Part shown: positions 1 through 38,691 of the stretch, piece by piece | Layout of the letters: each line of letters starts with the position of its first letter | How positions within the stretch are numbered: position 1 is the first letter of the stretch | Source of the DNA: Parabacteroides massiliensis | GTDB lineage: Bacteria > Bacteroidota > Bacteroidia > Bacteroidales > Tannerellaceae | DNA: 64,000 bases | Reading direction: 5' to 3' | Assembly: GCF_900155425.1 (NCBI RefSeq) | Contig: NZ_LT700189.1 | Coordinates: forward strand, 1,481,787-1,545,786 | Notes under the pieces: generated by a model | What the model saw: only the letters and a program-made list of their open reading frames with translations | Databases searched by the model: none | What the model was told of the DNA's origin: nothing | Position numbers and translations under genes: made by a program

Positions 1-783
1 CAAACCTACTTTCGCGTCTTCGACAGTAGCAACCTGATCCGACTTGCGGTATCTGAATAGTTCATTCGGTTTCAGGAAAACAGGTTCTTTCATGGCTTTT
101 CCCGATATCTTCACACTGCCGTCCAGCAAGGCGGTCTGCACAAATTCGCCGGAAGAATAGCTATCGAGATCGAAACGGGTTCCCAAAACTTCGACATCTA
201 TCTCTCCCGCCTGCACGACAAAAGGTTTTTTCGCATCTTTCGCCACTTCGAAATACGCTTCTCCTTCCAGAGAAACGGACCGTTTGTCACCGGTAAACTG
301 ATCCGGATAAGTCAGTTTGGTTTCCGAATTCAACCAAACCACCGATCCGTCCGGCAACGTGAACTTGCCTTTGCTACCTTTGGCCGTTATCAATTGGTTT
401 TGCACGATGACCTCAGAGGCGGAATATTCACTCCGCCTGCCGATACCATAACCGATTCCCAACAAAAGCAACAACACGGCAGCAGCTTGCGTCCAACGCC
501 AAACAAGCGATAATGTTTTTCTTTCCGTTCGTGATTTCCTCTCCATCCGACCTTGTTCCTGCAAAATGCGGTCTTTCAGCTTCGCCAAAGCGATATCGAC
601 CTCCAATTCGTTTCCGGCAACGGCATTGCAAGACAACCACAAGTCGCGAGTTGCAATAAAATCATCCCGATTATCATCCGATTGTTTCAGCCACTGAAGC
701 AATAACACCTTTTCTTCCAGCTCAGCCGAACCATCCAGATAACGGATTATCAATTCGTTGATATCGTTTGTTTCTTCTTTCAT
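1..783 (-). CDS. FecR-family anti-sigma factor (3' end outside window)
   Basis: Membrane-spanning regulator that holds or activates its partner ECF sigma factor in response to an outer-membrane transporter. The visible 261 residues start at an ATG at 783 and run off the left edge without a stop. Residues 1-80 form a helical cytoplasmic anti-sigma region rich in Asp, Glu and Leu. A single membrane segment lies near residues 95-107 (AAAVLLLLLGIGYGIG). The periplasmic part is a typical FecR domain, with LPDGSVVWLNSETKLTYP and LEGEAYFEVAKD. The ECF sigma gene lies just upstream on the same strand. In Bacteroidales such pairs are normally followed by SusC/SusD-like genes, which would be outside this window. 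The family is secure; the substrate system controlled is unknown. Confidence 0.93.
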   Translation of the reverse strand, partial: MKEETNDINELIIRYLDGSAELEEKVLLLQWLKQSDDNRDDFIATRDLWLSCNAVAGNELEVDIALAKLKDRILQEQGRMERKSRTERKTLSLVWRWTQAAAVLLLLLGIGYGIGRRSEYSASEVIVQNQLITAKGSKGKFTLPDGSVVWLNSETKLTYPDQFTGDKRSVSLEGEAYFEVAKDAKKPFVVQAGEIDVEVLGTRFDLDSYSSGEFVQTALLDGSVKISGKAMKEPVFLKPNELFRYRKSDQVATVEDAKVGL

Positions 784-893
784 TATGGAATCGTTTGTTA
801 GTAATACAAAAAAAGGAGGTTTTACCCTACCTCTTCCTGACAATTTTAAAAAAAAATAATAAGGAATAACTCCCGATTCAGACATTTGGGATT

Positions 894-1003
894 GGTTTCC
901 CCTGATGAAGTTTTTGTTTCCACCTATGGAAAATTTTGTTTCCACCGGTAGAAAATAAATTTTCCTGCCATAGAAAATTTATTTTCACGTAAATGAAACT
1001 GCT
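894..1003. repeat. Five tandem 22-bp imperfect repeats, each with internal dyad symmetry
   Basis: Between the sigma gene and fecR the sequence repeats with a 22-bp period. Units begin at 894, 916, 938, 960 and 982. The core of each is TTTCCACC-N3-4-GGAAA or a variant, a palindrome of the form TTTC...GAAA. The dyad centres of the last four units fall at 924.5, 946.5, 968.5 and 990.5, exactly 22 bp apart. The first unit is more degenerate and slightly out of phase. On the minus strand the array lies in the sigma-fecR intergenic RNA. The rest of the 783-1031 gap is AT-rich and I see no gene in it. Confidence 0.75.
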
Positions 1004-1753: not shown

Positions 1754-4700
1754 CTAATTCTGATTCTTGCCTTCTACTTTTATACGGATCGACCCTGGAG
1801 TCCGTTGGAAGCAGGAACAAAACAGATCCAGATCATTCGTCTTTTGCATGAACTCCTGTAATATCCGGCATTCCTCATCCGACCATGTTTCATAATGACG
1901 GGGATATTGCTTACGAACTCTCATTATCGACTCGGATACGTCCGTTTTCTTGATTCCCAATTGCCGGATACGCTCTTTGAAACCGGCCAAATCTTCATCC
2001 GTACAGTTGTTTACCGGATCGGCATCAAAGAAACCCGGACAAATTTTATTCTCGACCTGAACCTGATTCGTTACTGAGACAGGAATAGGTTCGAAAAGAA
2101 CTGATTCCGGTTCTATTGCATCTAACTCCTTCCTTAAGTTTGAAATATGCTTCGTTGCTTCTGGAGAAATCAGTTTCACAGAACATTCATGACGGGAATA
2201 ACTCCCATTTCTACATGCAGAAAGCCAGTTAAAGGAACCTTCCACCAATACCGAATCATCAATCGCAAGCGATTTGTTATGAATGCCTTTCAACAGAATC
2301 AACTTAATACCGTTTTCGGTTAAAGCCTTCCGCCCGGCAACGGCCTCCTTCCGCAACAAACCGGTTTGTTTGTCATAATCCAAGCGGAAATCCGAATACA
2401 CCACGACTTCCACACCCCGCTCCACCGCCTCCCGCATCAAGGGAATAAGATTATCATGTTCAATCGCCTGGATCGATATAAAAGGAGATACGATCAGCAA
2501 CCTTTTTGTCGCATCTTTAAAGGCTTGCCGCAACAAACCGGTGTGTTCCTCCAATGTCGATAAACGTTCGGCCGGTTGGTAGCGGCAAAGCGGTTCCTTT
2601 TGCCGATAGATGAAATTGCCGGACACTTCGTTCGCAGGATCGTCAAACAACCATTTTGCCAGGTTGCCGACGGGCGTATTTCGTTCGGGATGGAATATAT
2701 TCATATTCCCGAACACAAGGAAATGATACTGCGCACGCGAAACTGCCACGTTGAGCATATTGTACTTTCCACCTTGCTCCATAAAATAAGAAGCATCACC
2801 GGGAGAATTGACCGATGAAAAGATCACGACCGGACACTGCGCTCCCTGCAAAGAATGAACGGTGCCGATCGTCATACCGGCAAACGCTTCCGCCTCCGGC
2901 GACTGTTCCGCAAGACTACGGATGATCTCTTCCTGCGCCTTAAATGGGGTGACTACAGCCACTATTTTACGGATCGGCTCCTTGTAAGCACTTTCCAACT
3001 TCTCTTTTTCCGTTTCCAGCCAAGAAACGATTGCTGCTGCTTCTGCTCTGTTCAAGACACTGCCCGTCGCCCCTTTTTCACTGACTCCGTTTACATGGAC
3101 ATATCCTTTAGGCGGCAAGTCTTTATACTTCACCTTGTTTCCTTTCTTCGGCAGCAAACGGCCGTGATACACATAGTCGTTGCAATAAGCAATGATAGGA
3201 TCGAGACAACGCCTGTGTTCGGTCAAGAAAGCGCCTCTTTCGCCGGCGACTTCGAAACTGCAACTCTTCCGCGCCATCTTCATGATGCTTCCGGACGAGG
3301 ACAGGAAACCGTTTTCATGCAGAAACGCATACCGATCATCAGACTCGGAGGATACTAAGCCAAAACGTTTCAGATTGATACTGGAATATTCGTCCGAGAT
3401 GGACCATATCGGTTCGATCTGTTCCACGTCTCCCACTAAAATGGCTTGCTTGGCAAGGCTGAAAGAGGGAATAGCCAGTTCGGGAGAGACCTGCCCCGAT
3501 TCATCCACAATCAGCAAATCGATCGCATCATAGAGCGGGGCATCCCACTCCCCGTTGTCCGCACAAACCATGTATTTCGGCAAGGAATGGAAAGTCGAAA
3601 TAAAAACAGGCATCACACAGGCCAAACGTTTCAAACGTTCGGTATAATCTTCACGGCCACGCGTCTCCCCCTCTTTGTCGCATCCGGCCAAGCGGCGGAT
3701 AAACTCGGCTTCCCGGTCATGGATGGCATACCAGAACAAAAGATAGCGGTAACTGATATCCAGCCGCACCGCCATATCTTCCGTATAAGGGAGGGCATTG
3801 TATTCCGGATTGGCAACCAACTTGTCATAGCGTGCCTTAAAATCTTCCGTCTGCTCCCAGCCGCATATCATATCTTCATAGCTTGGAAGTTTTTGAAATT
3901 TACGGAGCAGTTTACTCAGAAAACCTTTATCCGTCATCTCTTTTCCATATTGTTTGAGACTGGCAACATTCAAGCAGGTTCCAATCTCATCCCGCATCTT
4001 CCTCATTTGCCTGCGAAGGAAACGTTGGCATGCAACTTCATCCCGGCAAGATGTCTGAAAGAAACGATTGAAATGTTCCAGATAGAACCCGCGATATTCT
4101 TCCAACCGGGCAGGATCGTCATAATCATTCGGAAAGCCTTCACCTTTCGTATTGAACATCATTTTGTACTGATCCTTTTGTTCGTCTTTGCCTGACAGAT
4201 ACAATCCCAACGTATCCAAACCGGGCAACCAACGGAGAGTCAACAGGTTTGCAGGCTTATCACCTGAAGGCTGTTCAATCTTGAAATCTTTCAGGATATT
4301 GGTAATCGCCTGGTTATTGGCGGAACTGGCTACGATGATATCCGGATCATCAGGATGCTCCAGTACGGCATGGACGATCCGGTTGGCAATCACCGTCTGT
4401 AAAAAGGTGGTCTTGCCTGTTCCCGGAGGTCCGTTAACGGCAAAGATATCGGAACTGTCCGGGTCCGTATACATGGCAAGCGTCTCACGCTGGGAGACGG
4501 ACAACGGAAACTCGCCACTCATCTGTGCCCAATGGTCTTTATTGCAATAAACTTGCTGTCTATCCGGCACAGGCAGCAATGTTTCCAGCTTTTTACGGAT
4601 CAGGAGTTCCAATAACGGATGGGAAGATTTACTTTCCAACAATTTGTCATACAGGTTGATGATCTTTTGTGCCATTCCTCGTCCGGGAGCTTTCACGACA

Positions 4701-5242
4701 ATGATTTCAGGCTTGTCGGCATAATTCATTTCCCGAAAAGTCAAGCCGGTCGCATTCTGGAACAGGTTTTCGCAAGCACTCCAATATTTCTTCCAGTCCG
4801 TCTCTTCGGTATCGAACTCACTCAAAAGCCGGTCCACTTTCGAAAGGGATGCAACAGTTCTGTCATTACGCGCATTTGGAGACAAAAACTTACGGACAAA
4901 AACCGGAATACGTTCAGACTTGTTGTCGCAGACCTGAAAAGTGCCGTCCGGCAACAATGTCGCGGAAATCAGGAAGGGGTATTCCGGAGTATTCTGTCCG
5001 GAAGTCCACCCGTTTTCGTACTCAGGAAGAAAGACACAAGGGGCAATCTGTATTTTACGTTTCTCGTCATCCGCCTTTTGCTTCCCTTTCGGGAAAAGCA
5101 GGGGAATGTCTTTGCGAAGTATAAATTCCGGCACCTTGTCACCTATCCGCAATGTAACTCGCGCTTCTTTCTTTAGTGACCTGCTCCTTCGTTCGGCATC
5201 CAGCAGGCAGTTTTTCCAGTATTTCAGCAGTTTTCTGTCCAT
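1754..5242 (-). CDS. SF1 (DNA2/NAM7/UPF1-like) helicase fused to a phospholipase-D-type domain
   Basis: Large protein of 1162 residues combining a superfamily 1 helicase with a PLD-like, possibly nuclease, module. Walker A is GPPGTGKTTF near residue 271. The DESG box of motif II is near residue 575. Later motifs GTVHSLQGAQ (about 795) and NVAVSRAQYHF (about 850) are those of the UPF1/DNA2 group. From about residue 910 a PLD-like domain follows, with HNKSLAIDDSVLVEGSFNW near residue 985. Only one clear HxK motif is seen, so an active enzyme would need a dimer. The last 55 residues (ETWSDEECRILQEFMQ...RTPGSIRIKVEG) look like a SANT/Myb-type helical domain. It starts 30 bp after the DUF5715-like lipoprotein gene and is probably cotranscribed with it. 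The role is inferred as nucleic-acid processing, possibly defence; no partner defence gene is adjacent. Confidence 0.85.
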   Translation of the reverse strand: MDRKLLKYWKNCLLDAERRSRSLKKEARVTLRIGDKVPEFILRKDIPLLFPKGKQKADDEKRKIQIAPCVFLPEYENGWTSGQNTPEYPFLISATLLPDGTFQVCDNKSERIPVFVRKFLSPNARNDRTVASLSKVDRLLSEFDTEETDWKKYWSACENLFQNATGLTFREMNYADKPEIIVVKAPGRGMAQKIINLYDKLLESKSSHPLLELLIRKKLETLLPVPDRQQVYCNKDHWAQMSGEFPLSVSQRETLAMYTDPDSSDIFAVNGPPGTGKTTFLQTVIANRIVHAVLEHPDDPDIIVASSANNQAITNILKDFKIEQPSGDKPANLLTLRWLPGLDTLGLYLSGKDEQKDQYKMMFNTKGEGFPNDYDDPARLEEYRGFYLEHFNRFFQTSCRDEVACQRFLRRQMRKMRDEIGTCLNVASLKQYGKEMTDKGFLSKLLRKFQKLPSYEDMICGWEQTEDFKARYDKLVANPEYNALPYTEDMAVRLDISYRYLLFWYAIHDREAEFIRRLAGCDKEGETRGREDYTERLKRLACVMPVFISTFHSLPKYMVCADNGEWDAPLYDAIDLLIVDESGQVSPELAIPSFSLAKQAILVGDVEQIEPIWSISDEYSSINLKRFGLVSSESDDRYAFLHENGFLSSSGSIMKMARKSCSFEVAGERGAFLTEHRRCLDPIIAYCNDYVYHGRLLPKKGNKVKYKDLPPKGYVHVNGVSEKGATGSVLNRAEAAAIVSWLETEKEKLESAYKEPIRKIVAVVTPFKAQEEIIRSLAEQSPEAEAFAGMTIGTVHSLQGAQCPVVIFSSVNSPGDASYFMEQGGKYNMLNVAVSRAQYHFLVFGNMNIFHPERNTPVGNLAKWLFDDPANEVSGNFIYRQKEPLCRYQPAERLSTLEEHTGLLRQAFKDATKRLLIVSPFISIQAIEHDNLIPLMREAVERGVEVVVYSDFRLDYDKQTGLLRKEAVAGRKALTENGIKLILLKGIHNKSLAIDDSVLVEGSFNWLSACRNGSYSRHECSVKLISPEATKHISNLRKELDAIEPESVLFEPIPVSVTNQVQVENKICPGFFDADPVNNCTDEDLAGFKERIRQLGIKKTDVSESIMRVRKQYPRHYETWSDEECRILQEFMQKTNDLDLFCSCFQRTPGSIRIKVEGKNQN

Positions 5243-5272
5243 CCGATCAGTAAGCTGTTACGTAGTCTCTTT

Positions 5273-5941
5273 CTATTTCTTTTCGCGGACGGTTATATGG
5301 AAACAGCCTTGCTTGCGTTCGTGCTTGACATAGCAACGTTCTTCCCGCTTCAAATCGCGCAAGACCATTGCCAACACCATCTTCAACCGGTCTTTGTCGA
5401 TATTCAGGGTATCGCTTTCGTCCACTTTGGTATAGCGGACCCAGGAGACATCGAAGGTCGTTCCGTAGCGGTGGGCCGAGTTTTGGGAGGAATTGGTATT
5501 TCTTTTTTTCAGGTTCTTGACATCATCGACCGTACGGGTGACACTGGTCACTTTGACTTTGTAGATCGATGCATTCAGATTGCGTAAGGAATCCTGGAAA
5601 TTATGTCCGATATCTTCCAGCAACTGTGCTGCCGAAGGAATCAAATACGGGATGGAATGTGTCAACTTTTCCACTTCATAATATTCGTTGGTTTCGATCT
5701 CTTCCATCTCCTTTTTCACTTTCTCCGCTTCCTCACGGTTCGATGCAGGCTTAATGCCGATACGTTCAGCTTCGGCCAGATGCACATCGTTCATATCTCT
5801 GAAATCACGGTTATAGCTTCCGTCATACCAAATACGTTTCAACTCTCCGCGTTTTTCCTTTTTTCCACAAGACGAACATATCATTACCACCGAGCAAGCT
5901 GCCACTATCAACCAAATACTAAATACTATCTTTTTCATCAT
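5273..5941 (-). CDS. DUF5715-like exported lipoprotein
   Basis: Exported protein of about 222 residues. I take the ATG at 5941 (MMKKIVFS), because the upstream extension to 5971 adds only charged residues before the signal peptide; the next Met at 5938 is equally possible. A hydrophobic stretch ends in the lipobox-like CSSC followed by Gly-Lys-Lys, which suggests a lipid-anchored periplasmic protein. The middle is a charged helix (EEAEKVKKEMEEIE). The C-terminal half contains SAHRYGTTFDVSW, reminiscent of DUF5715 and of peptidase-like RYGTAFDIS motifs seen in Bacteroidetes. The gene precedes the helicase/PLD gene by 30 bp. Function unknown; the DUF name is from memory of the motif, not from a search. 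Confidence 0.65.
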   Translation of the reverse strand: MMKKIVFSIWLIVAACSVVMICSSCGKKEKRGELKRIWYDGSYNRDFRDMNDVHLAEAERIGIKPASNREEAEKVKKEMEEIETNEYYEVEKLTHSIPYLIPSAAQLLEDIGHNFQDSLRNLNASIYKVKVTSVTRTVDDVKNLKKRNTNSSQNSAHRYGTTFDVSWVRYTKVDESDTLNIDKDRLKMVLAMVLRDLKREERCYVKHERKQGCFHITVREKK

Positions 5942-5999
5942 TTTTCTTTTAGTGAAAACAAAAGTAACCAAGATTCACTGATTTCAAAATATTAATGAC

Positions 6000-6007
6000 T
6001 ATTTTTG
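6000..6007 (+). promoter_or_regulatory. -7 element before the toxin-antitoxin genes
   Basis: TATTTTTG fits TAnnTTTG, 34 bp before the antitoxin ATG. The -33 box is not clear. Confidence 0.4.
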
Positions 6008-6040
6008 TGAATTCTGAATATAAACCAAATAGTTAATTGT

Positions 6041-6283
6041 ATGGACGCATTGGAATTAAAACTGTCACTTATCGAACAACTGAAAACGATCGACGATGTA
6101 AAGCTGTTGACACAGATCAAAAATTTGATCAACATAGCAACAGATAAGAAAGAAACGCGCTATCCGGCACAGATGACGCTGGAGGAATTGAAGGAAGTGT
6201 TGAAGAAATCGAGAGAAGAATCCAAAAAAGGATTAGGTATGACAACGGAAGAGTTACGTAAACGACACCCACTATGCGAATAA
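6041..6283 (+). CDS. Putative antitoxin of a RelE/ParE-type pair
   Basis: Protein of 80 residues with a leucine-rich first half (ALELKLSLIEQLKTIDDVKLL) and a charged C-terminal helix (MTLEELKEVLKKSREESKKG). No classical ribbon-helix-helix or HTH motif is obvious. The assignment rests mainly on context: its stop overlaps the toxin-like gene by 10 bases, the usual antitoxin-first order. Many small antitoxins in Bacteroidales have this form, a dimerising N-terminus and a disordered toxin-binding tail. It probably autoregulates the operon together with the toxin, though the DNA-binding part cannot be shown. Confidence 0.6.
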   Translation: MDALELKLSLIEQLKTIDDVKLLTQIKNLINIATDKKETRYPAQMTLEELKEVLKKSREESKKGLGMTTEELRKRHPLCE

Positions 6284-6588
6284 TAATAAAGTGGTTACCT
6301 CAATCCATTGCCTTACTTGACAACATCTACAGTTTCTACAGAGAAAAGAGCCAGACCGCAGCTATCCGTTTATACAACAAACTATTGGATTCTGCAGAAC
6401 CTTTACGCGTTTTTCCGCAAGCAGGTCCTATCGAACCGCTATTGAAAGGATATGATTGCGAATTTCGCTCCCTTGTCGTCGAAAAACATTACAAGTTGAT
6501 TTATACATTTACGGACGAACTGATCGAAATCCATGCCGTATGGGATTGCCGCCAGGAAGGATGGCGTCTGCAAGAAATGTTCAAATAA
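6274..6588 (+). CDS. RelE/ParE-family toxin
   Basis: Protein of 104 residues with the ParE/RelE layout. The N-terminal strand IIIKWLPQSIALLDNIYSFY is followed by paired helices with Arg/Lys (AAIRLYNKLLDSAEPLRVFP). The strands are FRSLVVEKHYKLIYTF and LIEIHAVWDCRQ. The segment FPQAGPIEP and the ending RQEGWRL are typical of the family. It overlaps the putative antitoxin by 10 bases (ATG at 6274 within its last codons), so translation is probably coupled. Whether it is a gyrase poison (ParE) or an mRNA interferase (RelE) cannot be decided by eye; ParE-like is slightly favoured by the sequence near the end. Confidence 0.85.
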   Translation: MRIIIKWLPQSIALLDNIYSFYREKSQTAAIRLYNKLLDSAEPLRVFPQAGPIEPLLKGYDCEFRSLVVEKHYKLIYTFTDELIEIHAVWDCRQEGWRLQEMFK

Positions 6589-6646
6589 TCTTCTTGAAAA
6601 GGCAACAAAAATATCTCACAATTTATTTTTACATAAAGAATATTAC

Positions 6647-6654
6647 TAATTTTG
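6647..6654 (+). promoter_or_regulatory. -7 element before phoH
   Basis: TAATTTTG matches TAnnTTTG, 58 bp before the phoH start codon. It would drive the phoH-purC-menG-aroE run. Confidence 0.45.
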
Positions 6655-6711
6655 TCTGCCTGAACGAAAATGGTAAAAATTCGCGACAAAGGCAGAACTA
6701 AAAAGAATTGA

Positions 6712-7734
6712 ATGATTGAACGAATTTATATTCTTGAGAGCGTAGACCCGGTTATATTCTACGGAGTAAACAATGTCAACATGCAGTTGATCAAGACATT
6801 GTTTCCCAAGTTGCGTATAGTGGCAAGGGGTAATGTGATGAAAGTGATCGGAGATGAAGATGAGTCGGAACTCTTTCTCAAGAAAATTCGCGAGGTAGAA
6901 AAATACTGCGAAGAATTCAACTCGCTAAGCGAAGATATCATACTGGACATCATCAAAGGCAAAGCCCCGGTGATCACCAAACAAGAGAACCTGATCATCC
7001 ACGGGATGAACGGCAAACCGATCGTCGCCCGCACGGAAAACCAGCAACGTCTTGTCAAAGCATTTGAAGAAAACGACCTCGTCTTTGCCACAGGCCCCGC
7101 CGGTACAGGTAAGACATTTATTGCCATAGCCCTCGCCGTAAAAGCGCTAAAAAACAAGGAAATCCGCAAGATTATCCTGAGCCGTCCGGCAGTAGAGGCC
7201 GGTGAGAAATTAGGATTCCTCCCTGGCGAAATGAAAGATAAACTCGATCCGTACCTCCAACCTCTGTATGACGCCCTGCAAGACATGGTTCCGGGAGCCA
7301 AGCTGAAGGAATACATGGAGAACAACGTGATCCAGATCGCCCCGCTCGCTTTTATGCGCGGACGAACGCTGAACGATGCGGTCATCATCCTCGATGAAGC
7401 CCAAAACACGACGACACACCAGATCAAGATGTTCCTCACCCGCCTTGGGATGAACGCCAAGATGATCATTACCGGAGACGTGACACAGATCGACCTGCCG
7501 CCGACTGCGACCTCCGGACTCATACAGGCCATGCAAATCCTGAAAGGCGTAAAGGGAATCGGCAAGGTCGAATTCGAGAAAAAAGACATTGTCCGCCATA
7601 AGCTCGTCCAGCGTATCGTCGACGCCTACGACAAATTCGACAGCAAACACAGCAAAGGCAGTTCGCGAACCGCTTCCAAGGAGCAACAAGAAGAAATAAA
7701 GAACAATATTAATAACATTCAGGACGCCCCATAA
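6712..7734 (+). CDS. phoH: PhoH-like ATPase
   Basis: Cytoplasmic P-loop ATPase of 340 residues, full length for the PhoH/PhoL family. The N-terminal part (residues 1-100) is the PhoL-type KH-like extension, with [21 protein letters not shown]. The ATPase core has Walker A GPAGTGKT near residue 126, the conserved [17 protein letters not shown], and Walker [10 protein letters not shown]. An [11 protein letters not shown] motif follows, which is diagnostic. The last 30 residues are a low-complexity hydrophilic tail. The family is linked to RNA metabolism and phosphate or stress responses, without a settled reaction. purC starts 23 bp downstream on the same strand. Confidence 0.95.
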
Positions 7735-7757: not shown

Positions 7758-8705
7758 ATGAAGAAGGCATTAACAAAAACAGACTTCAACTTTCCGGGAC
7801 AGAAGAGTGTCTATCATGGTAAAGTACGCGATGTGTACAACATCAACGACGACGTATTGGTGATGATCGCAACAGACCGTATCTCGGCATTCGACGTAAT
7901 CTTGCCGGAAGGTATTCCCTACAAAGGACAGATGCTGAACCAGATCGCGGCCAAATTCCTGGATGCGACTACCGACATTTGCCCGAACTGGAAGCTGGCG
8001 ACTCCCGATCCGATGGTGACCGTAGGCGTAATGTGCCAGGGATTCCCCGTTGAAATGATTGTACGCGGTTACCTCTGCGGAAGCGCATGGCGTGCTTATA
8101 AGAGCGGCGTACGCGAAATCTGCGGTGTAAAGCTGCCGGAAGGTATGCGTGAAAACGAACGTTTCCCCGAACCGATCATAACCCCGACGACAAAAGCCGA
8201 GATCGGCGAACACGATGCCGATATTTCCAAAGAAGAAATCCTGGCTAAAGGCCTGGCCACTCCCGAAGAATACGAACTGTTGGAGAAATACACGCTCGCC
8301 CTCTTCAAACGCGGTACGGAAATCGCTGCCGAACGCGGCCTGATCCTTGTCGACACAAAGTACGAATTCGGCAAACATGACGGCAAGATATACCTGATGG
8401 ACGAAATCCATACACCGGACTCTTCCCGCTATTTCTACAGCGAAGGCTACGAAGAACGATTTGCCAAAGGCGAACCACAGAAGCAGCTCTCCAAAGAGTT
8501 TGTCCGCGAATGGCTGATGGACAACGGTTTCCAAGGCAAGGCAGGCCAGAAGGTTCCCGAAATGACTCCGGCGATCGTAGAAGGTATCAGCGAACGCTAC
8601 ATCGAATTGTATGAACACATTACAGGCGAAAAGTTCGAAAAAAGCGATACGGACAACCTGCTTTCACGTATCGAAAAGAATGTAACCGAATATCTCAACA
8701 AATAA
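7758..8705 (+). CDS. purC: Phosphoribosylaminoimidazole-succinocarboxamide synthase
   Basis: Purine biosynthesis enzyme that joins CAIR and aspartate with ATP hydrolysis to give SAICAR. At 315 residues it belongs to the longer form found in Bacteroidetes and yeast, rather than the roughly 240-residue form of E. coli. Key segments are [28 protein letters not shown] at the N-terminus, the substrate-binding [16 protein letters not shown], and [29 protein letters not shown]. It sits between phoH and menG/ubiE with gaps of 23 and 12 bp, so all are probably on one message. Confidence 0.97.
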
Positions 8706-8717
8706 AGATAAACGGAT

Positions 8718-9458
8718 ATGGCGAAGTACGGTTCAGAACAGATTCTACCTTACAACAACGAGGAGCGTAAAGCAACACAGGTCAGGCGCATGTTTGACTC
8801 CATCGCCGGTACATACGATCAGCTGAACCATACGCTTTCACTGGGTATCGACAAAATATGGCGTAGGAAAGGGATTGCCTTCCTGCGCCCTTTTTCTCCT
8901 GTCTCGATTCTCGATATCGCCACCGGCACAGGAGATCTCGCAATCTCCATGTACCGTCGTCTGAAGGCCGACCGCATCATCGGAGCCGACATCTCGGAGG
9001 GCATGATGGATATCGGACGCCGGAAAGTCGCCGATGCGGGATTGTCGGACCACATCTCGTTCGAATACCAGGACTGCACGGCACTGACCTATCCGGACAA
9101 CTCGTTCGACGCCGTCACCGCTGCATTCGGAGTACGGAATTTCGAAAACATAGAGCAAGGAATCAGCGAAATGTACCGGGTGCTGAAACCGGGAGGCCAT
9201 CTGATGATCCTGGAACTTTCCTCACCGGAACATTTCCCGATGAAGCAGCTCTATGCCATCTATTCGAAAGCCGTGATCCCTACCGTCGGACACTTGTTTT
9301 CAAAAGAGCATACAGCCTACAGTTACCTGCCGGCCTCTATCAAAGTCGTTCCGCAAGGGAAGGTCATGACCGACCTGCTCAGCCGGGTCGGTTTCAGCGA
9401 AGCCCGTTCGCGCACTTTCACTTTCGGTATTTGTTCGCTATACACGGGCAGTAAATAA
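8718..9458 (+). CDS. menG: Demethylmenaquinone methyltransferase (MenG/UbiE)
   Basis: SAM-dependent C-methyltransferase of 246 residues that completes menaquinone synthesis; Bacteroidales use menaquinone, not ubiquinone. Motif I is [17 protein letters not shown] near residue 61. The family signature [28 protein letters not shown] is present, as are the [24 protein letters not shown] opening and the [23 protein letters not shown] ending. It starts 12 bp after purC and is followed 26 bp later by aroE. The same enzyme is named UbiE in ubiquinone-making organisms. Confidence 0.95.
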
Positions 9459-9484
9459 ACATTAATCATCTTAATTCACCGATC

Positions 9485-10225
9485 ATGCAAAAATATGGTT
9501 TAATAGGATATCCCCTCGGACACTCTTTTTCGAAGAACTACTTCAACCAGAAGTTCGAATCTGAGAAAATCGATGCCACTTATCTGAACTTCGAGATCCC
9601 GAACATCAAAGATCTGAAGACTGTATTGAAAGAGAACCCGGAATTGAACGGCCTGAACGTCACCATCCCCTACAAGGAGCAAGTCATCCCTTATCTGGAT
9701 GATCTGGACGAAGACGCCCGCCTGATCGGAGCTGTCAATGTCATCAAATTCACCAAAGGACTCTTCGGCAAAAAGCTGAAAGGCTACAACTCCGACATCA
9801 TAGGCTTCAAACGCTCAATCGAGCCACTCCTAAACGAGACACATCGCAAAGCCTTGATCCTGGGAACGGGAGGTGCTTCGAAAGCCGTCTTCCAAGGATT
9901 GAAACAATTGGGTGTCGGTGCCACGCTGGTTTCTCGCAAACCGAAAGATTTCTGTATCACCTACGAAGAGATCACTCCGAAAACGATGGAACAGTACACC
10001 GTCATCGTCAACACGACTCCGTTAGGCATGTTCCCGAACATCAACGCCTGCCCCGACATTCCCTACGACCTGCTCACCCCCAACCATCTGTTGTACGACC
10101 TCTTGTACAACCCGGATGAAACCCTCTTCATGAAGAAAGGGAAAGAAAAAGGAGCCGTCGTCAAAAACGGTCTCGAGATGCTCCTGCTTCAAGCATTCGC
10201 CGCTTGGGAAATCTGGCAGAAATAA
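9485..10225 (+). CDS. aroE: Shikimate dehydrogenase
   Basis: NADP-dependent reduction of 3-dehydroshikimate to shikimate in chorismate synthesis. It is 246 residues long, slightly shorter than the usual 270. The N-terminal substrate domain has YPLGHSFSKNYFNQKF and the signature GLNVTIPYKEQVIPYLD with the catalytic Lys. The nucleotide domain has LILGTGGASKAVFQGLKQLG, and the NTTPLGMFPN segment is present. It is the last gene of the phoH-purC-menG-aroE run and ends at a bidirectional-looking terminator. Confidence 0.96.
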   Translation: MQKYGLIGYPLGHSFSKNYFNQKFESEKIDATYLNFEIPNIKDLKTVLKENPELNGLNVTIPYKEQVIPYLDDLDEDARLIGAVNVIKFTKGLFGKKLKGYNSDIIGFKRSIEPLLNETHRKALILGTGGASKAVFQGLKQLGVGATLVSRKPKDFCITYEEITPKTMEQYTVIVNTTPLGMFPNINACPDIPYDLLTPNHLLYDLLYNPDETLFMKKGKEKGAVVKNGLEMLLLQAFAAWEIWQK

Positions 10226-10242
10226 AGCATTGCTTTACGACT

Positions 10243-10283
10243 CCTAACCCATAGCTTTAGAAGGCGTAACCCTATGGGTTAGG
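10243..10283. terminator. Hairpin between convergent aroE and the phosphopantetheinyl transferase
   Basis: Perfect 12-bp stem: CCTAACCCATAG at 10243-10254 pairs with CTATGGGTTAGG at 10272-10283, with a 17-base loop. It lies between converging genes and can serve both strands. No strong T-run follows. Confidence 0.65.
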
Positions 10284-10311
10284 ATATATATACCGATACT
10301 GAAAAAACGAT

Positions 10312-10929
10312 TCAACTCCGGGTTAATACGAAATCGGGGGTGACAAGGTAGTCCAACCGGTAAACCGCCCCTTCTTCCGTACGGGTTTCATAGACGGTGA
10401 AACTTCCTTCTTCCGCATAGGGAAACGGACAGACATGCAGATGGTGAAGGAAGTCGACCTCTTCCCGGCCGATCATCTTGAAAAGCGTCTCTTTCGCACA
10501 CCAATGAAGTAACAAGTGCTCCGTCTCGTGCTCTTTGTCGATACCCGCCTCTTCTTCCGGATTCATAAAGCGACTGCGTATCTTCGACACCCTTTCGGAA
10601 CGGTATTCGATGTCGATGCCGACGGCAGGACGGTCCTGCAACAGAACAGCTGCATAACCTTTCGTATGGGAGATGCTGATATGCAAAAACGAGTCCGGCA
10701 GGTAAGGCGCACCGCTCGGACGGTAGGCGATGCGGACAGGAGCATCCGTAAGTTCCTGCAAAAGCACACGGCAGGCAAGCCATTCCCGACGGCGTTGCTC
10801 TATACGGATCAGTTCTAACTGCGGCAGATATTCTTCCCTGTTCCGCAAAAGGGAAAGAAGGACCTCGGAAGATTCCTCTATCTTCCAGACTCCCCACAAC
10901 GGGCCGGTATGTTTCATCAGGAGAGACAT
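10312..10929 (-). CDS. 4'-phosphopantetheinyl transferase (Sfp-type)
   Basis: Transfers phosphopantetheine from CoA to carrier proteins. The Sfp-type signatures are VGIDIEYRSERVSKI with the metal-binding Asp and Glu, and LLLHWCAKETLFKM (the WxxKEA-like motif). ISISHTKGYAAVLL precedes them, the usual SHS-type segment. I take ATG at 10929, giving 205 residues, over a GTG 12 bases upstream. This start overlaps the gldD stop as TAATG, the same arrangement used at the gldE-gldD junction. It is the last gene of the mutY-ssb-gldE-gldD chain. The carrier-protein target is not evident from the context; fatty-acid ACP or a secondary pathway are both possible. Confidence 0.9.
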   Translation of the reverse strand: MSLLMKHTGPLWGVWKIEESSEVLLSLLRNREEYLPQLELIRIEQRRREWLACRVLLQELTDAPVRIAYRPSGAPYLPDSFLHISISHTKGYAAVLLQDRPAVGIDIEYRSERVSKIRSRFMNPEEEAGIDKEHETEHLLLHWCAKETLFKMIGREEVDFLHHLHVCPFPYAEEGSFTVYETRTEEGAVYRLDYLVTPDFVLTRS

Positions 10930-29520: not shown

Positions 29521-30834
29521 CTACTGTTTTACATGGAAATCATTACTCAGAAAATCACTTGTGGCATACTTGAACCCGTATGGCCCGTAATCTTTCAGCA
29601 TTTTATGTGCTAATTGTTTTTCCGGCTCCGTCACTTTATCCACCGGTTCGCCTTCCGCATCGGCATAATTCGTGGGTGTCATCCGGGCGATGGAATGTTC
29701 CCAGTCTTTGTCCGGCAAGATGTTACGATACATGATGGTAAAGACATCGCCGAGTGGTTTTCCATCTATATCGATTTTCTCGCTATCCCAAACAAAGAGG
29801 TTCCAATGTCCACCTAATTTATTCAAGGCTTCGATTTTTACTTTTATTTCCTCCAATCTGGGATTTTGCTTCCGGCAGATGATAAAAGTCGTTTTTTCGC
29901 CTTCCTCTACGTTTGCTTCCTTGTCATAGACGGAGTAGTAAGAACGAGTGTTGGACGCAGAACCAAGGCAGATAGACCAATAACGGGCCTTGGCATTTTC
30001 ATATTCTTCCACTTTCTGAGGAATCGGAACCGGAATAAAACTGAATATCAACACAGAATCAGTTTTCAGGCGAGTACGTCCATAAAGATAGCTGGTTGAG
30101 TTGTTCGGGTAATATTCGCTTCGCGGAGCTAAGAAAAACGGAACGTCGCGATTGTCGTCAGACTTTTGGGTAAAGGTTTTGCCTGTCACTTTATCGATAT
30201 TCGACCGGGTGCGTTCTGGAGCTGGCATTTCTTTCAGCGAATGTATATCCACACCTGTTATCAGAGGCAACTCGACTCCTCCATATTCATCTTTTACTCC
30301 GTTAACATCCGTTCCAAGATAATGCCGGATGCAAATAGCAAGCCGTCTGACACCTGCTGTCACTTTGCGAACGTTCTTCGAAGGAAGCTTCGCGATCTTC
30401 GACTCTTCCATGGAAGCCGGAACGACGTATAGAGTGAAATAATTGTCCTTCGACGATGTCACCACAAAGGGATTATCATCGCCCGGGTCCGATGTCATCT
30501 CATAATCATTGATACCACCAATGGCAGAGCCTGTTTCATCATTATAAAACGAGAAACTGAAATAGCGGGCGTGAGGATATTGCCCTTTTATCCGTAGAGC
30601 CACATCCGGATAATCGGTCATATCATACGTATATTCCCAATAATTGCTGAACAAATCTGGATAGGCTCCCAAAACCTCGCCATCACCTTTCAATGTGGCA
30701 CTCCACTGTTCTTTCGGATTGACTGTTCCGTTCTCATCCTTACCGCCCTCATCGGAACAAGCGATAAAAGCCGTATACAAAAATACGGTGAAAAAGAGTG
30801 ATTTCATTCTTTTTTGTTTCATGGAAAATTTCAT
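29521..30834 (-). CDS. Surface-type lipoprotein of the GLUG operon (DUF1214-like segments)
   Basis: Protein of 437 residues (or a few fewer, since Mets at codons 5 and 10 also fit). The lipobox is FIAC followed by Ser-Asp-Glu, an acidic pattern that in Bacteroidota promotes export to the cell surface. The segments YPHARYFSFSFYNDETG and ARYWSICLG recall the DUF1214/DUF1254 fold, as does a proline-rich RTRLKTDSVLIFSFIPVPIPQ. No catalytic motif is evident. Its ATG overlaps the stop of the upstream GLUG gene by four bases (ATGA), so it is probably translated with it. I read it as the third product of a surface-protein operon of unknown role. Confidence 0.7.
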   Translation of the reverse strand: MKFSMKQKRMKSLFFTVFLYTAFIACSDEGGKDENGTVNPKEQWSATLKGDGEVLGAYPDLFSNYWEYTYDMTDYPDVALRIKGQYPHARYFSFSFYNDETGSAIGGINDYEMTSDPGDDNPFVVTSSKDNYFTLYVVPASMEESKIAKLPSKNVRKVTAGVRRLAICIRHYLGTDVNGVKDEYGGVELPLITGVDIHSLKEMPAPERTRSNIDKVTGKTFTQKSDDNRDVPFFLAPRSEYYPNNSTSYLYGRTRLKTDSVLIFSFIPVPIPQKVEEYENAKARYWSICLGSASNTRSYYSVYDKEANVEEGEKTTFIICRKQNPRLEEIKVKIEALNKLGGHWNLFVWDSEKIDIDGKPLGDVFTIMYRNILPDKDWEHSIARMTPTNYADAEGEPVDKVTEPEKQLAHKMLKDYGPYGFKYATSDFLSNDFHVKQ

Positions 30835-33812: not shown

Positions 33813-36782
33813 TCAATTTTCTTCTTCAATCGCTTCTTCCATTTCCGAGTGGTAAGGGACCGGGAAATATCCGGTACTTTCCGTCACATGCCAAACGGAA
33901 GCGGTACCGTTGATATCCCAGTCCTCATAACTTTCCGGATTTTTCAATTCTTCAACGGAAAGTGCCTTCATATGGTTAAAGTTATTATCATCTAACGACG
34001 GATAGAGCACATCGTAATAATAGAGTCCGGATTTATCCGGAAAATCTCCACTGCTGTGATCCATAGGATCGCCCCATCCGCTACCGACGCTTAAACACCG
34101 GTCTATTTCGTATCTGGAATCGCCTCGACCGACAATTCCTCCGTTCTTGCCGGAATCGCCTTCGTAAGATCCGGCATTGAGGCAGTCTTTGATAAGGCAA
34201 TATTGTTGCAAGTGGCCGGCTATTCCTCCGACACGATCGGAATCGTCAGCTTTCACTTTTCCCATATTGACACATTGCGAGACGATGACTGCATTGTTTT
34301 GATAATCCGTCGCCCCTTCTATGACAGCGTTCGTCCCTCCGATAATGGTAGCGACGGATCCGAGGGCCGTAAGAGCGATGGCAGTCGAAGTTCCGGCAGT
34401 AACAAATCCGGAAGCAACTGCGGCCGTGGCTGCCACACAAATACAAGTTCCAGCTATTACTTTTTGCACGATCTCTTGTATATGCTTGCTCTCTTCGATC
34501 TTGTCATATCGCTCTTCCCTCTTCTTGTTTATATTATAATTAATTATGGAATTATTATCGTCCGAGGCTTCATAGAAAGTCAGCACCTTACCCAAGTTAT
34601 CCATGTAGACAGGTGCTATCCCAGCATTCAAACCGGAAGGCAACAAACCGGAAGCCAAACTGAATCCTTTCCGCAAACTTTCCATGTCCGTTTTGACAGA
34701 CGCATCGATCTCGGTCACTTTCGCATCGAGAGATACTTGCAAAAGTTCCGTTTCCTTCTCTGTCAACATCTCGGCAATGCCAACCCGAAGCAACACCTTA
34801 TCGGTGACCATGAGCGCCCAGTCTAATCCTGTCTCCGCGATATGCAAAACATGAACCAGTTTGCCAAATGCTTTTCCAGCCGTCGAAGTCGCCTTTTCCA
34901 ACGCACCTCCTGTCACAGCTATGACGGGTCCTAAGATTCCCAACACACACTCGACACTGCCCAAGACACAACTCACGATGTTCATTGCCGACCATTCTTT
35001 CGGGTCGCCAATCTCACCGATCAAACCTCCGGTCGGCCCTTCTCCTCGGTTCAATACAAAACCTGCATTACAGCAATAATTGACCATCGTATAGTTGCCT
35101 GCCAACCCGACAATACCGCCTGCATAATGGGCCTTCACGTCCATATCTCCGAAATTCTGCGTGGCGAAGATGGCACCCCAAGTTGTCTTGCCGACCACAC
35201 CTCCGGCACTCTCCACGTTTTGTCCGGACACTTTTCCTGCATTCAACGCATTATGAACCACGGCGACCGACGAATTGCCGACGATACCACCTACATACGA
35301 ATCACACGCATAAGCGACTACATCACCTGTGTTATATACGGCATAACCACCGAACTGGGCTTCACCGCAAATGCCGCCTATCGCCGATTCTCCACCGACA
35401 CAGCCGGTGTTCCGGCATGATTTCACCAACGTATTATTGAAAAGAAGGTCCTCGGTTCCCAACCGGGTACTTCCGATGATTCCTCCCACACCGATATAGC
35501 CGTTGATATTTCCTTTATTGGTACTGGCGTAAATATAAGACATTCCCGTTCCTCCGGCAATACCTCCGGTGCCAAAACCTCCATTGGCTTCATCCGCTCC
35601 GTCATAGGCTTTCGCTCCCGTAACATCACCGGTATTCATGCATCCCAAAACAAAAAGGGAATCTGCCGAACCAACCAATCCGCCGGCGCCGGTATAGTCG
35701 GAAGTCACAGCCGCATGGTTCTCACACTGTTGCAGATAAGATTGTGAATACAGCGAGCCGGCTCCCAACAAACCTCCTATGCCGTATGCTCCGGACACCG
35801 CAGTACTCACGTTAACGCAACTATCCAGCAAGATCATTCCATACGTGTCTACTTCTCCGACCAGCCCGCCGGCACCGACACTTCCTTTGCTAGCCATGAC
35901 ATATCCTCCACTGGTCATACAACTGAAAAGCGCAGTCTTGTCACGGCTGTCTCCTGCCGATACGGCACCTCCGACTATCGATCCGACCGCAAAATTGCCC
36001 TCCATACGAGGATTTTCCATCCTGATATTTTTGAAGACGGCCTTCTCCGTATAACCAAACAAAGCAATACCGGCCGAATTTTCTCGTTTAGCCCAAAGAT
36101 TTCTGATCGCATAACCGTTTCCGTCATAAATACCGCGAAAGGGATTGTTCGGCAGATTGCCGATCGCAAGCCATCCAAACTCGTGGTCACTGTCCCACGA
36201 TGCCTTGTCCATGTCTATGTCTGCCGTTTGCAGAAAATGAGTTTTGACCAACAGAAGATTGTTCTTGGCCTGATCGTTCGCCACGTTCCGAATTCGTTTC
36301 AAATGATCGGAACTGGATATGATAAAAGGATCATCCTCTGTCCCGCTACCGGACAATTTCATTGCCTTACTATAGAAATCAAGAACCTTTACCGTATCTG
36401 TTTCCGATATTTCCACCCGGCATCCCAATCCGTATTCGCACCAAGTCGTGTCCGACCCGACTGTCGTCACCGGAGCCTTCAGATAAAGCAAACGATAAAT
36501 GCCTGCCTTCAATCCGACATCGAACGTAAGAATAGATTTGCCATCCAGACGCAGATGTTCTCCTTGCCGTGAAATAACGGTGCCATCTTCCGTACTGATG
36601 GCACAGACAAACTTTGCATAATGGAAATCTTCCGTCTCTTGTTGAAGAGTGATCAGCTTTTGGGGACCTTCGTAGAAGTCCTCACCTTCGGGAAGCACGG
36701 GTTGAGGCCCATCCTCCTGGCAAGCGGAAAACAACACACTGAATATTCCGAACAAAAACAACAATCGACTCATCTTTCCCAT
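33813..36782 (-). CDS. GLUG-repeat surface lipoprotein with an inserted hydrophobic helical domain
   Basis: Protein of 989 residues with signal peptide and lipobox FSAC followed by Gln-Glu-Asp. GLUG units occupy about residues 265-590 (AGGLVGEVD, TGGIAGGTG, IGGICGEAQ, VGGIVGNSS, AGGVVGKTT, AGGIVGLAG, TGGLIGEIG). They resume at about 850-885 (VGGIAGHLQQ, NGGIVGRGD). Between them, residues about 594-832 are not beta-helix. They begin with a hydrophobic stretch (CVLGILGPVIAVTGGAL), continue with amphipathic helices (LLQVSLDAKVTEIDASVK), and include an Ala/Gly/Thr-rich hydrophobic hairpin (VAATAAVASGFVTAGT, ALTALGSVATIIGG). This is an in-frame insertion in the helix. It is the first of three operon genes and has a candidate promoter at 36827-36834. 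Confidence 0.83.
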   Translation of the reverse strand: MGKMSRLLFLFGIFSVLFSACQEDGPQPVLPEGEDFYEGPQKLITLQQETEDFHYAKFVCAISTEDGTVISRQGEHLRLDGKSILTFDVGLKAGIYRLLYLKAPVTTVGSDTTWCEYGLGCRVEISETDTVKVLDFYSKAMKLSGSGTEDDPFIISSSDHLKRIRNVANDQAKNNLLLVKTHFLQTADIDMDKASWDSDHEFGWLAIGNLPNNPFRGIYDGNGYAIRNLWAKRENSAGIALFGYTEKAVFKNIRMENPRMEGNFAVGSIVGGAVSAGDSRDKTALFSCMTSGGYVMASKGSVGAGGLVGEVDTYGMILLDSCVNVSTAVSGAYGIGGLLGAGSLYSQSYLQQCENHAAVTSDYTGAGGLVGSADSLFVLGCMNTGDVTGAKAYDGADEANGGFGTGGIAGGTGMSYIYASTNKGNINGYIGVGGIIGSTRLGTEDLLFNNTLVKSCRNTGCVGGESAIGGICGEAQFGGYAVYNTGDVVAYACDSYVGGIVGNSSVAVVHNALNAGKVSGQNVESAGGVVGKTTWGAIFATQNFGDMDVKAHYAGGIVGLAGNYTMVNYCCNAGFVLNRGEGPTGGLIGEIGDPKEWSAMNIVSCVLGSVECVLGILGPVIAVTGGALEKATSTAGKAFGKLVHVLHIAETGLDWALMVTDKVLLRVGIAEMLTEKETELLQVSLDAKVTEIDASVKTDMESLRKGFSLASGLLPSGLNAGIAPVYMDNLGKVLTFYEASDDNNSIINYNINKKREERYDKIEESKHIQEIVQKVIAGTCICVAATAAVASGFVTAGTSTAIALTALGSVATIIGGTNAVIEGATDYQNNAVIVSQCVNMGKVKADDSDRVGGIAGHLQQYCLIKDCLNAGSYEGDSGKNGGIVGRGDSRYEIDRCLSVGSGWGDPMDHSSGDFPDKSGLYYYDVLYPSLDDNNFNHMKALSVEELKNPESYEDWDINGTASVWHVTESTGYFPVPYHSEMEEAIEEEN

Positions 36783-36915: not shown

Positions 36916-38580
36916 TTACTTACCAATGGCAATATTCCGGTATTGGGAAGGAGGCATGCCGTATTTGTCCCTGAAAGAACGTTGAAAGGTTCGCAACGTC
37001 CCAAATCCACACTGTTCCGCAATTTCCTTTACTGTAACCGATTCTTCCAAGGCAAGAAGACGTCTGGCATTTTCGAGTCGAAACATGGTGATATATTCCA
37101 ACACGGTCTGTCCGTTCTTTTCCCGTATAGAGTTTGCCAATATTCGTTCGCTGACCAGAAGCGCCTTGGCAAGTTCTTTCCTATCCAAAGCCGGATTCCG
37201 ATAAGGACGTTCGTTCGTCATGTACAGGTTTAGTTGCCGCATGACTTCGGCCGATACATCCTCGACAGACTGTTCCTTCCGTTTTTCCGATAACGGCAAA
37301 AAGTTGCTTACCCACTTGTCATGCTCTTCCAACTGGTCCACAAGCACGCGATTTTTGATATTCAGTTTCTTCGCATAAAGGACCGATAAAGAGAAAAGAA
37401 GAGCAATCAGCATGATAATGACAAGAGACAATTGCAGATATCTCGTTTTTTGCCGGTTTTCCTGTTCCATCTTTTCTACCTGATGCTGTATGCGGAGCTC
37501 CTCTATCTGACGGGCGATATCTATCTTGGCGATCGAGTCGCTTGCCGAAATATAATTTCTGTAAAGCCTGATGCTTTCATGAGACTGCCCGTCCAACGAC
37601 AACAGTTCCGCCTTGACCAACATATCGTCCAATAAGAAAGGGAAGTAATCCCGATGCGTTTCCATCAACGTATCGACTTGGGCAATCGCCTCCTTATATT
37701 CTCCTTTTTCATACATATACATATAACAAGCTTCATAAAAATGCTCATACGCCCGGGCAGGGAACTCCGGACGCATATATTCCCGAGCCTTTTCAAGACA
37801 ATCCTGCGCCTCCGACACACGGTCAACCTTCAGAAATGCGATGGAACGTAAAGAATGATAAGTGACCGGACAATGCCCGCTCGGATCATACCAACCTTTT
37901 TCATTCCAGTAGGCCAGCATGTCTCCGTAGTGATCGGCAAGCGGTAACAACTCCTCGAATGCTTCCGTCTTTATGCAAGTCATAATCAACCATTCGCACA
38001 AACTTTGAGCCGTCATGAACGTGTTCAGGTTCTCCTGATAGGAAGGGCATATTTCCCGTCCCTCTTGCAAAGACGCGTATGCTTTGTCATACAAGTTAAG
38101 TTTATAATAGATTTGCCCCTGTACCCTGAGTGCCATCGCCATACCGAGAGGTTGTTGCAGTTTTTTTGCCTGCAAATACATATCTGCCGCCTCATCCTGC
38201 GCTTTTTGATAGAAACGATGCGAAAACAACCGATTTACAAGCATATTGTACAAAGCAAAATAATAGTCGTACTGCTTCGTATCGGAAAGGAAAGTCAAGG
38301 CCGGATATACATCCGTCATAAAACCTTCGTCACGGTTCATATTGTTCAAAGACTGAAAATAAGAGACGTAAGCCAATCCCAGATCAGCCGTGTCATGCCT
38401 GGCATTTGCCATTTCGATTACTTTTTCCCAATCTTCGGGCAGCTCGCTTTTCCGAGCATTCCTTTTTAAGATCTCAATCGAATCAGGTTGACGTTCAGAT
38501 TCTTCAGCGACAACTTTGCCACACGGCATAAACGTGAAAAGCAAAGACAAAATAATATATGTACAAATAGAATGTTTCAT
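36916..38580 (-). CDS. Membrane-spanning TPR sensor with C-terminal AraC-type DNA-binding domain
   Basis: One-component regulator of 554 residues from the ATG at 38580 (the preceding codon is TTG). A signal-like N-terminus (TYIILSLLFTFMPC) leads into a periplasmic helical TPR region at about residues 30-370 (IYYKLNLYDKAYASLQEGRE, CYMYMYEKGEYKEAIAQVD). One membrane helix lies at about 383-404 (LSLVIIMLIALLFSLSVLYA). A short coiled-coil is followed by the AraC HTH at about 450-550 (LALEESVTVKEIAEQCGFGTLRTFQRSFRDKYGMPPSQYR). It is directly upstream of, and on the same strand as, the three-gene GLUG operon, so it probably controls that operon. The sensed signal is unknown. Confidence 0.88.
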   Translation of the reverse strand: MKHSICTYIILSLLFTFMPCGKVVAEESERQPDSIEILKRNARKSELPEDWEKVIEMANARHDTADLGLAYVSYFQSLNNMNRDEGFMTDVYPALTFLSDTKQYDYYFALYNMLVNRLFSHRFYQKAQDEAADMYLQAKKLQQPLGMAMALRVQGQIYYKLNLYDKAYASLQEGREICPSYQENLNTFMTAQSLCEWLIMTCIKTEAFEELLPLADHYGDMLAYWNEKGWYDPSGHCPVTYHSLRSIAFLKVDRVSEAQDCLEKAREYMRPEFPARAYEHFYEACYMYMYEKGEYKEAIAQVDTLMETHRDYFPFLLDDMLVKAELLSLDGQSHESIRLYRNYISASDSIAKIDIARQIEELRIQHQVEKMEQENRQKTRYLQLSLVIIMLIALLFSLSVLYAKKLNIKNRVLVDQLEEHDKWVSNFLPLSEKRKEQSVEDVSAEVMRQLNLYMTNERPYRNPALDRKELAKALLVSERILANSIREKNGQTVLEYITMFRLENARRLLALEESVTVKEIAEQCGFGTLRTFQRSFRDKYGMPPSQYRNIAIGK

Positions 38581-38691
38581 CAAAAATCAGACCGTTGTCT
38601 TTTTCACCGCAAATGTACACAAAATCCGCCTCCATGTTTCTAAAAATCCGAAAAAGACACAGACATGCCCAAACTATCGAAATATATTTGT

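Follow-up and report, generated by a model that had tools for sequence, protein, structure and literature searches.

The P989 gene of Parabacteroides massiliensis, situated in the 64,000-nucleotide stretch of DNA analyzed here (the window), encodes a lipoprotein whose GLUG-like beta-helix is interrupted by a helical insert, which in turn contains a hairpin that has been kept almost free of charged residues across its relatives. The gene is accompanied by that of a second lipoprotein, P985, which is made of the same repeats and lacks the insert. Taken together, the sequence comparisons suggest, at a little under an even chance, that the two proteins form a surface complex whose helical module enters the membrane of a contacted cell. 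GLUG-like proteins are common in the gut Bacteroidales, and few of them have a tested function. A conserved pair with a membrane-type hairpin in one of its members offers a concrete starting point for testing roles other than adhesion, and, if membrane insertion is true, the pair would represent an alpha-helical two-component system alongside the beta-barrel ones of these bacteria.

Architecture of P989 and the place of the insert

The features of the pair and its surroundings, with the basis of each given in brackets where it is not discussed below, are as follows.

29521..30834, minus strand: P437, an accessory lipoprotein with a 4-bp overlap with P985
30831..33788, minus strand: P985, an insert-free GLUG-like lipoprotein, 24 bp downstream of P989 (open reading frame)
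33813..36782, minus strand: P989, a lipoprotein of 989 aa with a GLUG-like beta-helix and a helical insert (open reading frame, relatives)
34068..34286, minus strand: P989 beta-helix beyond the insert, residues 833-905 (model, repeats, structure alignment)
34287..35003, minus strand: P989 helical insert, residues 594-832, 239 in all (repeat spacing, relatives)
34320..34451, minus strand: charge-free Ala/Gly/Val/Thr hairpin of the insert, residues 778-821, with glycine 797 in the turn (33-sequence alignment)
34455..34760, minus strand: charged helical region of the insert, residues 675-776 (helical in low-confidence models)
34899..34994, minus strand: first hydrophobic helix of the insert, residues 597-628
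35004..36362, minus strand: P989 beta-helix ahead of the insert, residues 141-593, modelled well from about 320 (model, repeats, structure alignment)
36363..36665, minus strand: P989 N-terminal beta domain, residues about 40-140 (strands in the model)
36720..36782, minus strand: P989 signal peptide and lipobox cysteine 21, then QEDG, resembling an export signal (sequence)
36916..38583, minus strand: TPR and AraC-type regulator, upstream of the pair

In both window proteins, the lipobox is followed by acidic residues past the cysteine (SACQEDG in P989 and TSCGDDE in P985), which is a described type of surface-export signal (PMC5080379); the signal types are taken from that source, whose part used here holds no Parabacteroides consensus. 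Judging from these signals, P989 and P985 are probably surface-exposed lipoproteins. The best scores with the Pfam Glug family (PF07581) are 15.9 bits for P989, 16.7 for P985, and 18.3 for a P989-type paralog from the same genome, all under the curated cut-off of 20.5 bits, and the window proteins are therefore termed GLUG-like; the P985-type partner of this paralog scores 26.3 bits, which is over the cut-off.

The fold of P989 is that of a right-handed beta-helix. Its model aligns to the single solved beta-helices of AlgE6 (243..870) and the CBA120 tailspike (183..894), where the ranges extend from the first to the last aligned residue of the model, and both run past the insert. By sequence, the whole of P989 has chance-level matches only in the PDB, and PHROG 30905 matches the beta-helix only (3.6e-8). 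The N-terminal beta domain is modelled by AlphaFold2 with a pLDDT of 48-62 over residues 41-100, falling afterwards, and the protein ends in a C-terminal tail after a short return of the beta-helix. A protease reading of the window proteins was dropped after the motif search, as the HExxH zinc motif is missing from both P989 and P985; it occurs in one of 33 P989-type sequences and in none of 32 P985-type sequences.

The first-pass annotation, made from the letters of the window, had proposed that residues from about 594 to 832 interrupt the GLUG repeats, which then resume, and two kinds of evidence agree with this. Ahead of the insert, the starts of the GGxxG-type repeats are spaced at 27-39 residues, with exceptions of 9 and 19, whereas the starts at 585 and 852 are 267 residues apart and the next falls at 881 (29 residues on), so that a single interval has been enlarged by approximately 238 residues. 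The full-length AlphaFold2 model likewise places beta-helix at about 320-590 and 840-900, with helices in between. The spacings of 9 and 19 flank a single extra regex match at 536. The pLDDT of the insert block is just 22-35 in the full-length model, and AlphaFold2 gave no fold for the insert in the five sequences predicted, with values of about 30 at the hairpin, for which reason no fold is claimed for it. The insert has a GC content of 0.481, against 0.490 in the remainder of the gene, and the idea of a foreign cassette was rejected on this ground.

Conservation of the insert and its charge-free hairpin

The alignment of 33 sequences comprises the window protein and 32 full-length relatives, most of which were found using the insert as the query; a P989-type gene broken into frames (L030) and a P989-type frame cut by a contig end (L033) were excluded. 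Every one of the 33 sequences has the insert in this position, with a length of 206-248 residues and an identity to the window insert that falls as low as 17%. As most of these relatives were found through the insert, the fact that they carry it is no test of conservation, and an insert-independent test was made by scanning the 123 family genomes with an N-terminal profile, for which 13 sequences with the insert had been used. This profile returned 12 matches with E 4.4e-37 or better, the next being at 5e-25 and followed by other GLUG-like proteins. Among these strong matches, G022 is a broken gene, and the other 11, all intact, carry a hydrophobic helical segment at the place of the insert, which contradicts the case, anticipated in the first-pass annotation, of an insert absent in nearly all homologs.

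The insert is patchily distributed. As a single-sequence query it matches 6 of the 38 genomes of the genus Parabacteroides, and as a profile it matches 9 of 123 in the family Tannerellaceae, 38 of 397 in the family f26 (inferred to be Muribaculaceae), 5 of 393 in the order sample, and 2 of 395 in the phylum sample, both of the latter from the own genus. One match in the order sample (G393, a frame of 946 aa) and one in f26 (G672, 2567 aa within the region retrieved) are different proteins, to which the insert profile aligns along short segments only; both were excluded from the relatives, as their domains are different and the two full-length profiles do not find them at E 1. One genome, G037, has two diverged inserts, for which the profile gives 4.6e-5 (L069) and no match (L068). 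The genome of the window itself contains a second pair of the P989/P985 type, the P989-type member being 56% identical to P989. A mobile-element idea was also considered and dropped, as no relative was confirmed in the viral contigs (searched with one peptide pattern) or plasmids (tblastn).

Within the insert, the Ala/Gly/Thr-rich hairpin previously noted at 34314-34466 proved to be real, and it encloses a core in which charge is almost absent. Residues 778-821 form a run of 44 columns, the turn included, in which no column has more than one charged letter and 5 cells among 1393 are charged in the 33 sequences, while the next longest run of this kind in residues 40-984 has 19 columns. In the 23 sequences whose inserts share under 60% identity, 5 of 961 cells are charged and the mean pairwise identity of the hairpin stretch is 0.34; here, the run splits as 778-806 and 808-821, column 807 being mostly gap, and uncharged in the full set. 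Just ahead of the hairpin, the stretches 675-712, 723-762, and 763-776 have 29-33% charged letters. Glycine 797, in the turn, is found in 32 of the 33 sequences. Individual members deviate from the pattern: the paralog in the own genome (L025) has an aspartate near the tip of the hairpin and a longest charge-free run of 26, and the longest runs are 32 in L126, 40 in L069, and only 23 in L068.

Hydropathy gives a less clear signal. The highest KD19 peak of the window insert (2.16) is in the first helix, with 1.96 at the hairpin, and 869 of 5000 composition shuffles reach 2.16. Across the alignment, all 33 sequences reach a peak of 1.84 or more in the second half of the insert, against 1.74 or lower in their own beta-helix portions and 1.09-1.79 in 14 P985-type proteins; P985 itself has no segment of this kind, and its KD19 maximum past residue 60 is 1.19. 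On an octanol scale, the hydrophobicity of the window hairpin is marginal at -0.4, the 33 sequences spanning -0.4 to 6.0. The hydropathy of the window sequence alone is weak evidence, then, and the charge-free run of 44 columns is strong evidence. A soluble hairpin would normally expose one face and its turn, so a run of this length would be unusual in it, and the run favours a membrane-inserting over a solvent-exposed hairpin. It is somewhat more likely than not that the hairpin enters some membrane. The first hydrophobic helix is another matter: the insert does have the hydrophobic start ascribed to it, but an acidic residue occupies position 611 in 29 of the 33 sequences, which sets this helix apart from an ordinary membrane helix.

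Comparison of the insert with Pfam, NCBIfam, PADLOC (which has no cut-off), PHROGs, and PDB sequences revealed nothing past a curated cut-off or clearly significant, and the profile search against toxin and pore families, proposed at first pass, likewise showed no family that reached its cut-off. The best Pfam E-values over 13 members were 0.0008 for Tam41_Mmp37 (two members), 0.0025 for SseC (one), and 0.0062 for SLATT_fungal (five), and those elsewhere were 0.021 for NCBIfam Ssp4 and 0.0025 for PADLOC CARF_m9. Tam41_Mmp37 is not a pore family. The sub-threshold matches to SLATT, SseC, ApoL, and Ssp4, which are membrane-active effector families, carry no weight because unrelated names score as well or better. 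The PDB profile matches of the insert (E 0.013-9.4) are read as chance coil matches. In a literature search by title and the start of the abstract, with most subscription journals outside its reach, no paper on such a GLUG-like pair was found.

Pairing with P985 and the neighbouring genes

The absence of the insert from the companion protein had been pointed out at first pass, and P985 is now found to be a strict neighbour as well: at each of the 35 loci, a P989-type and a P985-type gene lie side by side on one strand. These comprise a set of 17 (the window, L006, L007, L025-L036, L068, and L069) and a set of 18 (L109-L126), drawn from 20 retrieved loci of which two duplicate L006 and L007; in the set of 18, the analysis covered the pair and the regulator. 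The f26 loci examined cover 22 of the 38 matched genomes. For the diverged L068 and L069, the P985 profile gives the partner genes better scores than the P989 profile does (295 vs 201 and 223 vs 122 bits), the order of the two genes is reversed in L069 and L126, and the P985-type gene is split in L109. Seen from the other side, a search of 121 family genomes gave 11 strong P985 matches. Ten are paired, including that of G022, where the P989-type gene is broken, and there is one orphan, a strong P985-type gene (G074 C13, L127) with neither a P989-type neighbour nor a detectable remnant. The insert profile (9 of 123) and the P985 N-terminal profile (9 of 121) pick the same nine genomes, and at the thresholds applied neither recovers the divergent G037 pairs. 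In a small control of four hand-picked GLUG-like loci without the insert (L070-L073; frames of at least 250 aa, 7-14 kb each), each holds a single such gene.

The three parts of the pair have also diverged in step. Over 32 loci, L109 being excluded here too, the distances between inserts track those between the beta-helices (Spearman 0.83) and those between the P985-type proteins (Spearman 0.73, reached by 0 of 999 permutations). As the insert diverges along with its carrier and with P985, it has been inherited with the module, as one unit, and the same correlation with the carrier speaks against a polymorphic toxin with an exchangeable module.

A further recurrent neighbour is the TPR-AraC regulator, which stands beside the pair at at least 11 of the 35 loci: the window, L006 (divergent), L026, L027, L035, and L068, and also L110, L111, L112, L114, and L123 (E 1e-15 or better). 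When the neighbours at the 17 loci were clustered, no gene other than the pair and the regulator recurred beyond two loci; P437, which has no Pfam, NCBIfam, or PDB match, is found at one other of them. The search for an immunity partner suggested at first pass found no such gene recurring at these loci, and the idea was discarded. The first-pass view of a surface protein with a membrane-inserting module is therefore upheld in part, by the conserved insert, the membrane-type hairpin, and the lipoprotein signal that resembles one for export, while toxin delivery or killing of neighbours gained no supporting result: the 17 loci share no recurring immunity gene, and no match to a toxin or pore family was shown to exceed the cut-off.

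Proposed working, alternatives, and known systems

In the proposed mechanism, P989 and P985 would be lipid-anchored beta-helices that form one complex, in which the beta-helix of P989 would act as a rigid stalk that displays the helical module, and the 44-residue hairpin would be kept covered until contact. Once triggered, the hairpin would enter a lipid bilayer, the contacted cell's being the most plausible one, in the manner of the hairpins of alpha-pore-forming or translocating proteins, any pore or toxic effect being putative. P985, in turn, may control, assemble, or aim the module of P989.

The pairing itself would be explained equally well if the insert were a soluble docking module, its hairpin permanently buried, whether within a bundle or against P985, and the pair an adhesin or a complex that binds glycans or host proteins. 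This alternative, the main one, is somewhat unlikely. An interface would be consistent with both the invariable P985-type neighbour and the correlated divergence, adhesins and carbohydrate-active proteins share the beta-helix fold, neither a toxin family match nor a recurring immunity gene is found, and a hairpin buried against P985 or in a bundle might also stay charge-free. What disfavours it is only the length of the charge-free run and its tip, which would be unusual in a soluble hairpin. Stably seated membrane proteins usually have polar or charged turns, and a charge-free tip would suit a hairpin that pushes into a bilayer.

The membrane concerned might also be the outer membrane of the producer, where the hairpin would provide a second anchor or take part in export or surface assembly. 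A charge-free, Ala/Gly-rich hairpin that is merely moderately hydrophobic would be compatible with this, in a protein that its lipobox marks as a lipoprotein, but the lipobox cysteine makes such an anchor less needed, as the lipid already anchors P989, the insert-free P985 manages without a hairpin, and helical hairpins are rare in outer membranes, which renders this alternative quite improbable. Entry into a foreign membrane includes a further sub-case, in which the module would target eukaryotic membranes, of host cells or protists, and not bacterial ones. Here, the relatives found come from two Bacteroidales families known from animal guts and the 17 loci have no immunity gene in common, but there is no sequence evidence of a host receptor-binding domain, and the patchy presence in the genus fits many ecologies, so that this sub-case appears very improbable. 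Returning to the entry of the module into a contacted cell, it is doubtful, if conceivable, that the pair stands for a two-component, contact-dependent class of its own, with lipid-anchored twin beta-helices, one of which would deploy an alpha-helical hairpin from a repeat loop into the membrane of the touched cell.

Among known systems, the closest by fold are presumably the GLUG-type beta-helix proteins, which we take to include a Bacteroides ovatus protein (3n6z) and the beta-helix of the M26 IgA1 proteases (7uvk and 6xjb). The window proteins differ from these in lacking HExxH, and P989 has a protruding helical domain, whereas the pneumococcal beta-helix is without protruding elements in the part of its description used here (PMC7695701). 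Two-component surface-lipoprotein pore formers are known in the Bacteroidota, and the passages of the source considered here describe the two-component CDCL toxins as the products of adjacent lipoprotein genes with an SpII signal, in which an obvious immunity gene is not always present (PMC11169675). The window pair shares with them the two adjacent lipoprotein genes; on the other hand, neither P989 nor P985 has a MACPF/CDC match in Pfam or NCBIfam, and the membrane part of P989 would be a helical hairpin instead of a beta-barrel. The BSAP antibacterial proteins are, as far as the portion consulted of their source extends, Bacteroidales surface lipoproteins with an export signal, all with a MACPF domain (PMC12853789). 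P989 and P985 are likewise lipoproteins with an export-type signal, but they have no MACPF match.

Finally, the ClyA-type alpha-pore-forming toxins and the hydrophobic-hairpin translocators combine charged helices with a hydrophobic hairpin. The insert of P989 also pairs charged helices with a hydrophobic hairpin, in a module that sits in the beta-helix of a lipoprotein, and it has no significant profile or PDB sequence match that would indicate homology to the ClyA type. Two-component versions of the alpha-pore-forming toxins exist, according to the part of the source used here (PMC6162564). Given these comparisons, P989 and P985 are classed with the GLUG-like surface lipoproteins, and the bolder reading, in which the hairpin of P989 would insert into a membrane, is a plausible proposal.

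Copies of the pair and the adjoining lipoprotein gene

The genome that carries the window also holds another copy of the pair formed by P989 (the GLUG-like beta-helix lipoprotein with the helical insert) and P985 (its insert-free partner), and P985 is followed by a further lipoprotein gene, P437.

5144-11111 of L025 (G000 C2): second pair copy, same genome as the window
29521-30834 of the window: P437, lipoprotein, 4-bp overlap with P985

The second pair, 56% (P989 type) and 46% (P985 type) identical to that of the window, lies at a separate genomic site without an adjoining regulator or P437, which was present only at the window and L027 among the 17 loci checked, and had no match in Pfam, NCBIfam or the PDB.

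Damaged, orphan and very long genes

The P989-type gene is broken at L030 (7440-9327), with its P985-type neighbour intact, and at L109 the P989-type gene is intact and the adjoining P985-type gene (4109-7221) is split into two frames, the broken and split genes being handled as separate pieces. At L127, the P985-type gene (7859-10804) is an orphan with no adjoining P989-type gene, and no frame above 250 aa was found in the preceding 3.7 kb.

Given the several matches to the N-terminal/beta-helix profile within each of two very long frames, of 1670 aa (G075 C1, 188313-191849) and 1770 aa (G103 C45, 18315-22628), tandem GLUG-like units are suggested.

A toxin-like frame outside the family

6066-8903 of L037: 946-aa frame with MORN repeats, hydrophobic hairpin and C-terminal nuclease domain

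This frame, the hairpin of which is charge-poor (ATGGTATP-type) and the C-terminal domain a WHH/colicin-DNase-type nuclease, is likely a polymorphic antibacterial toxin, and its hairpin provides a weak, out-of-family match to the P989 insert.
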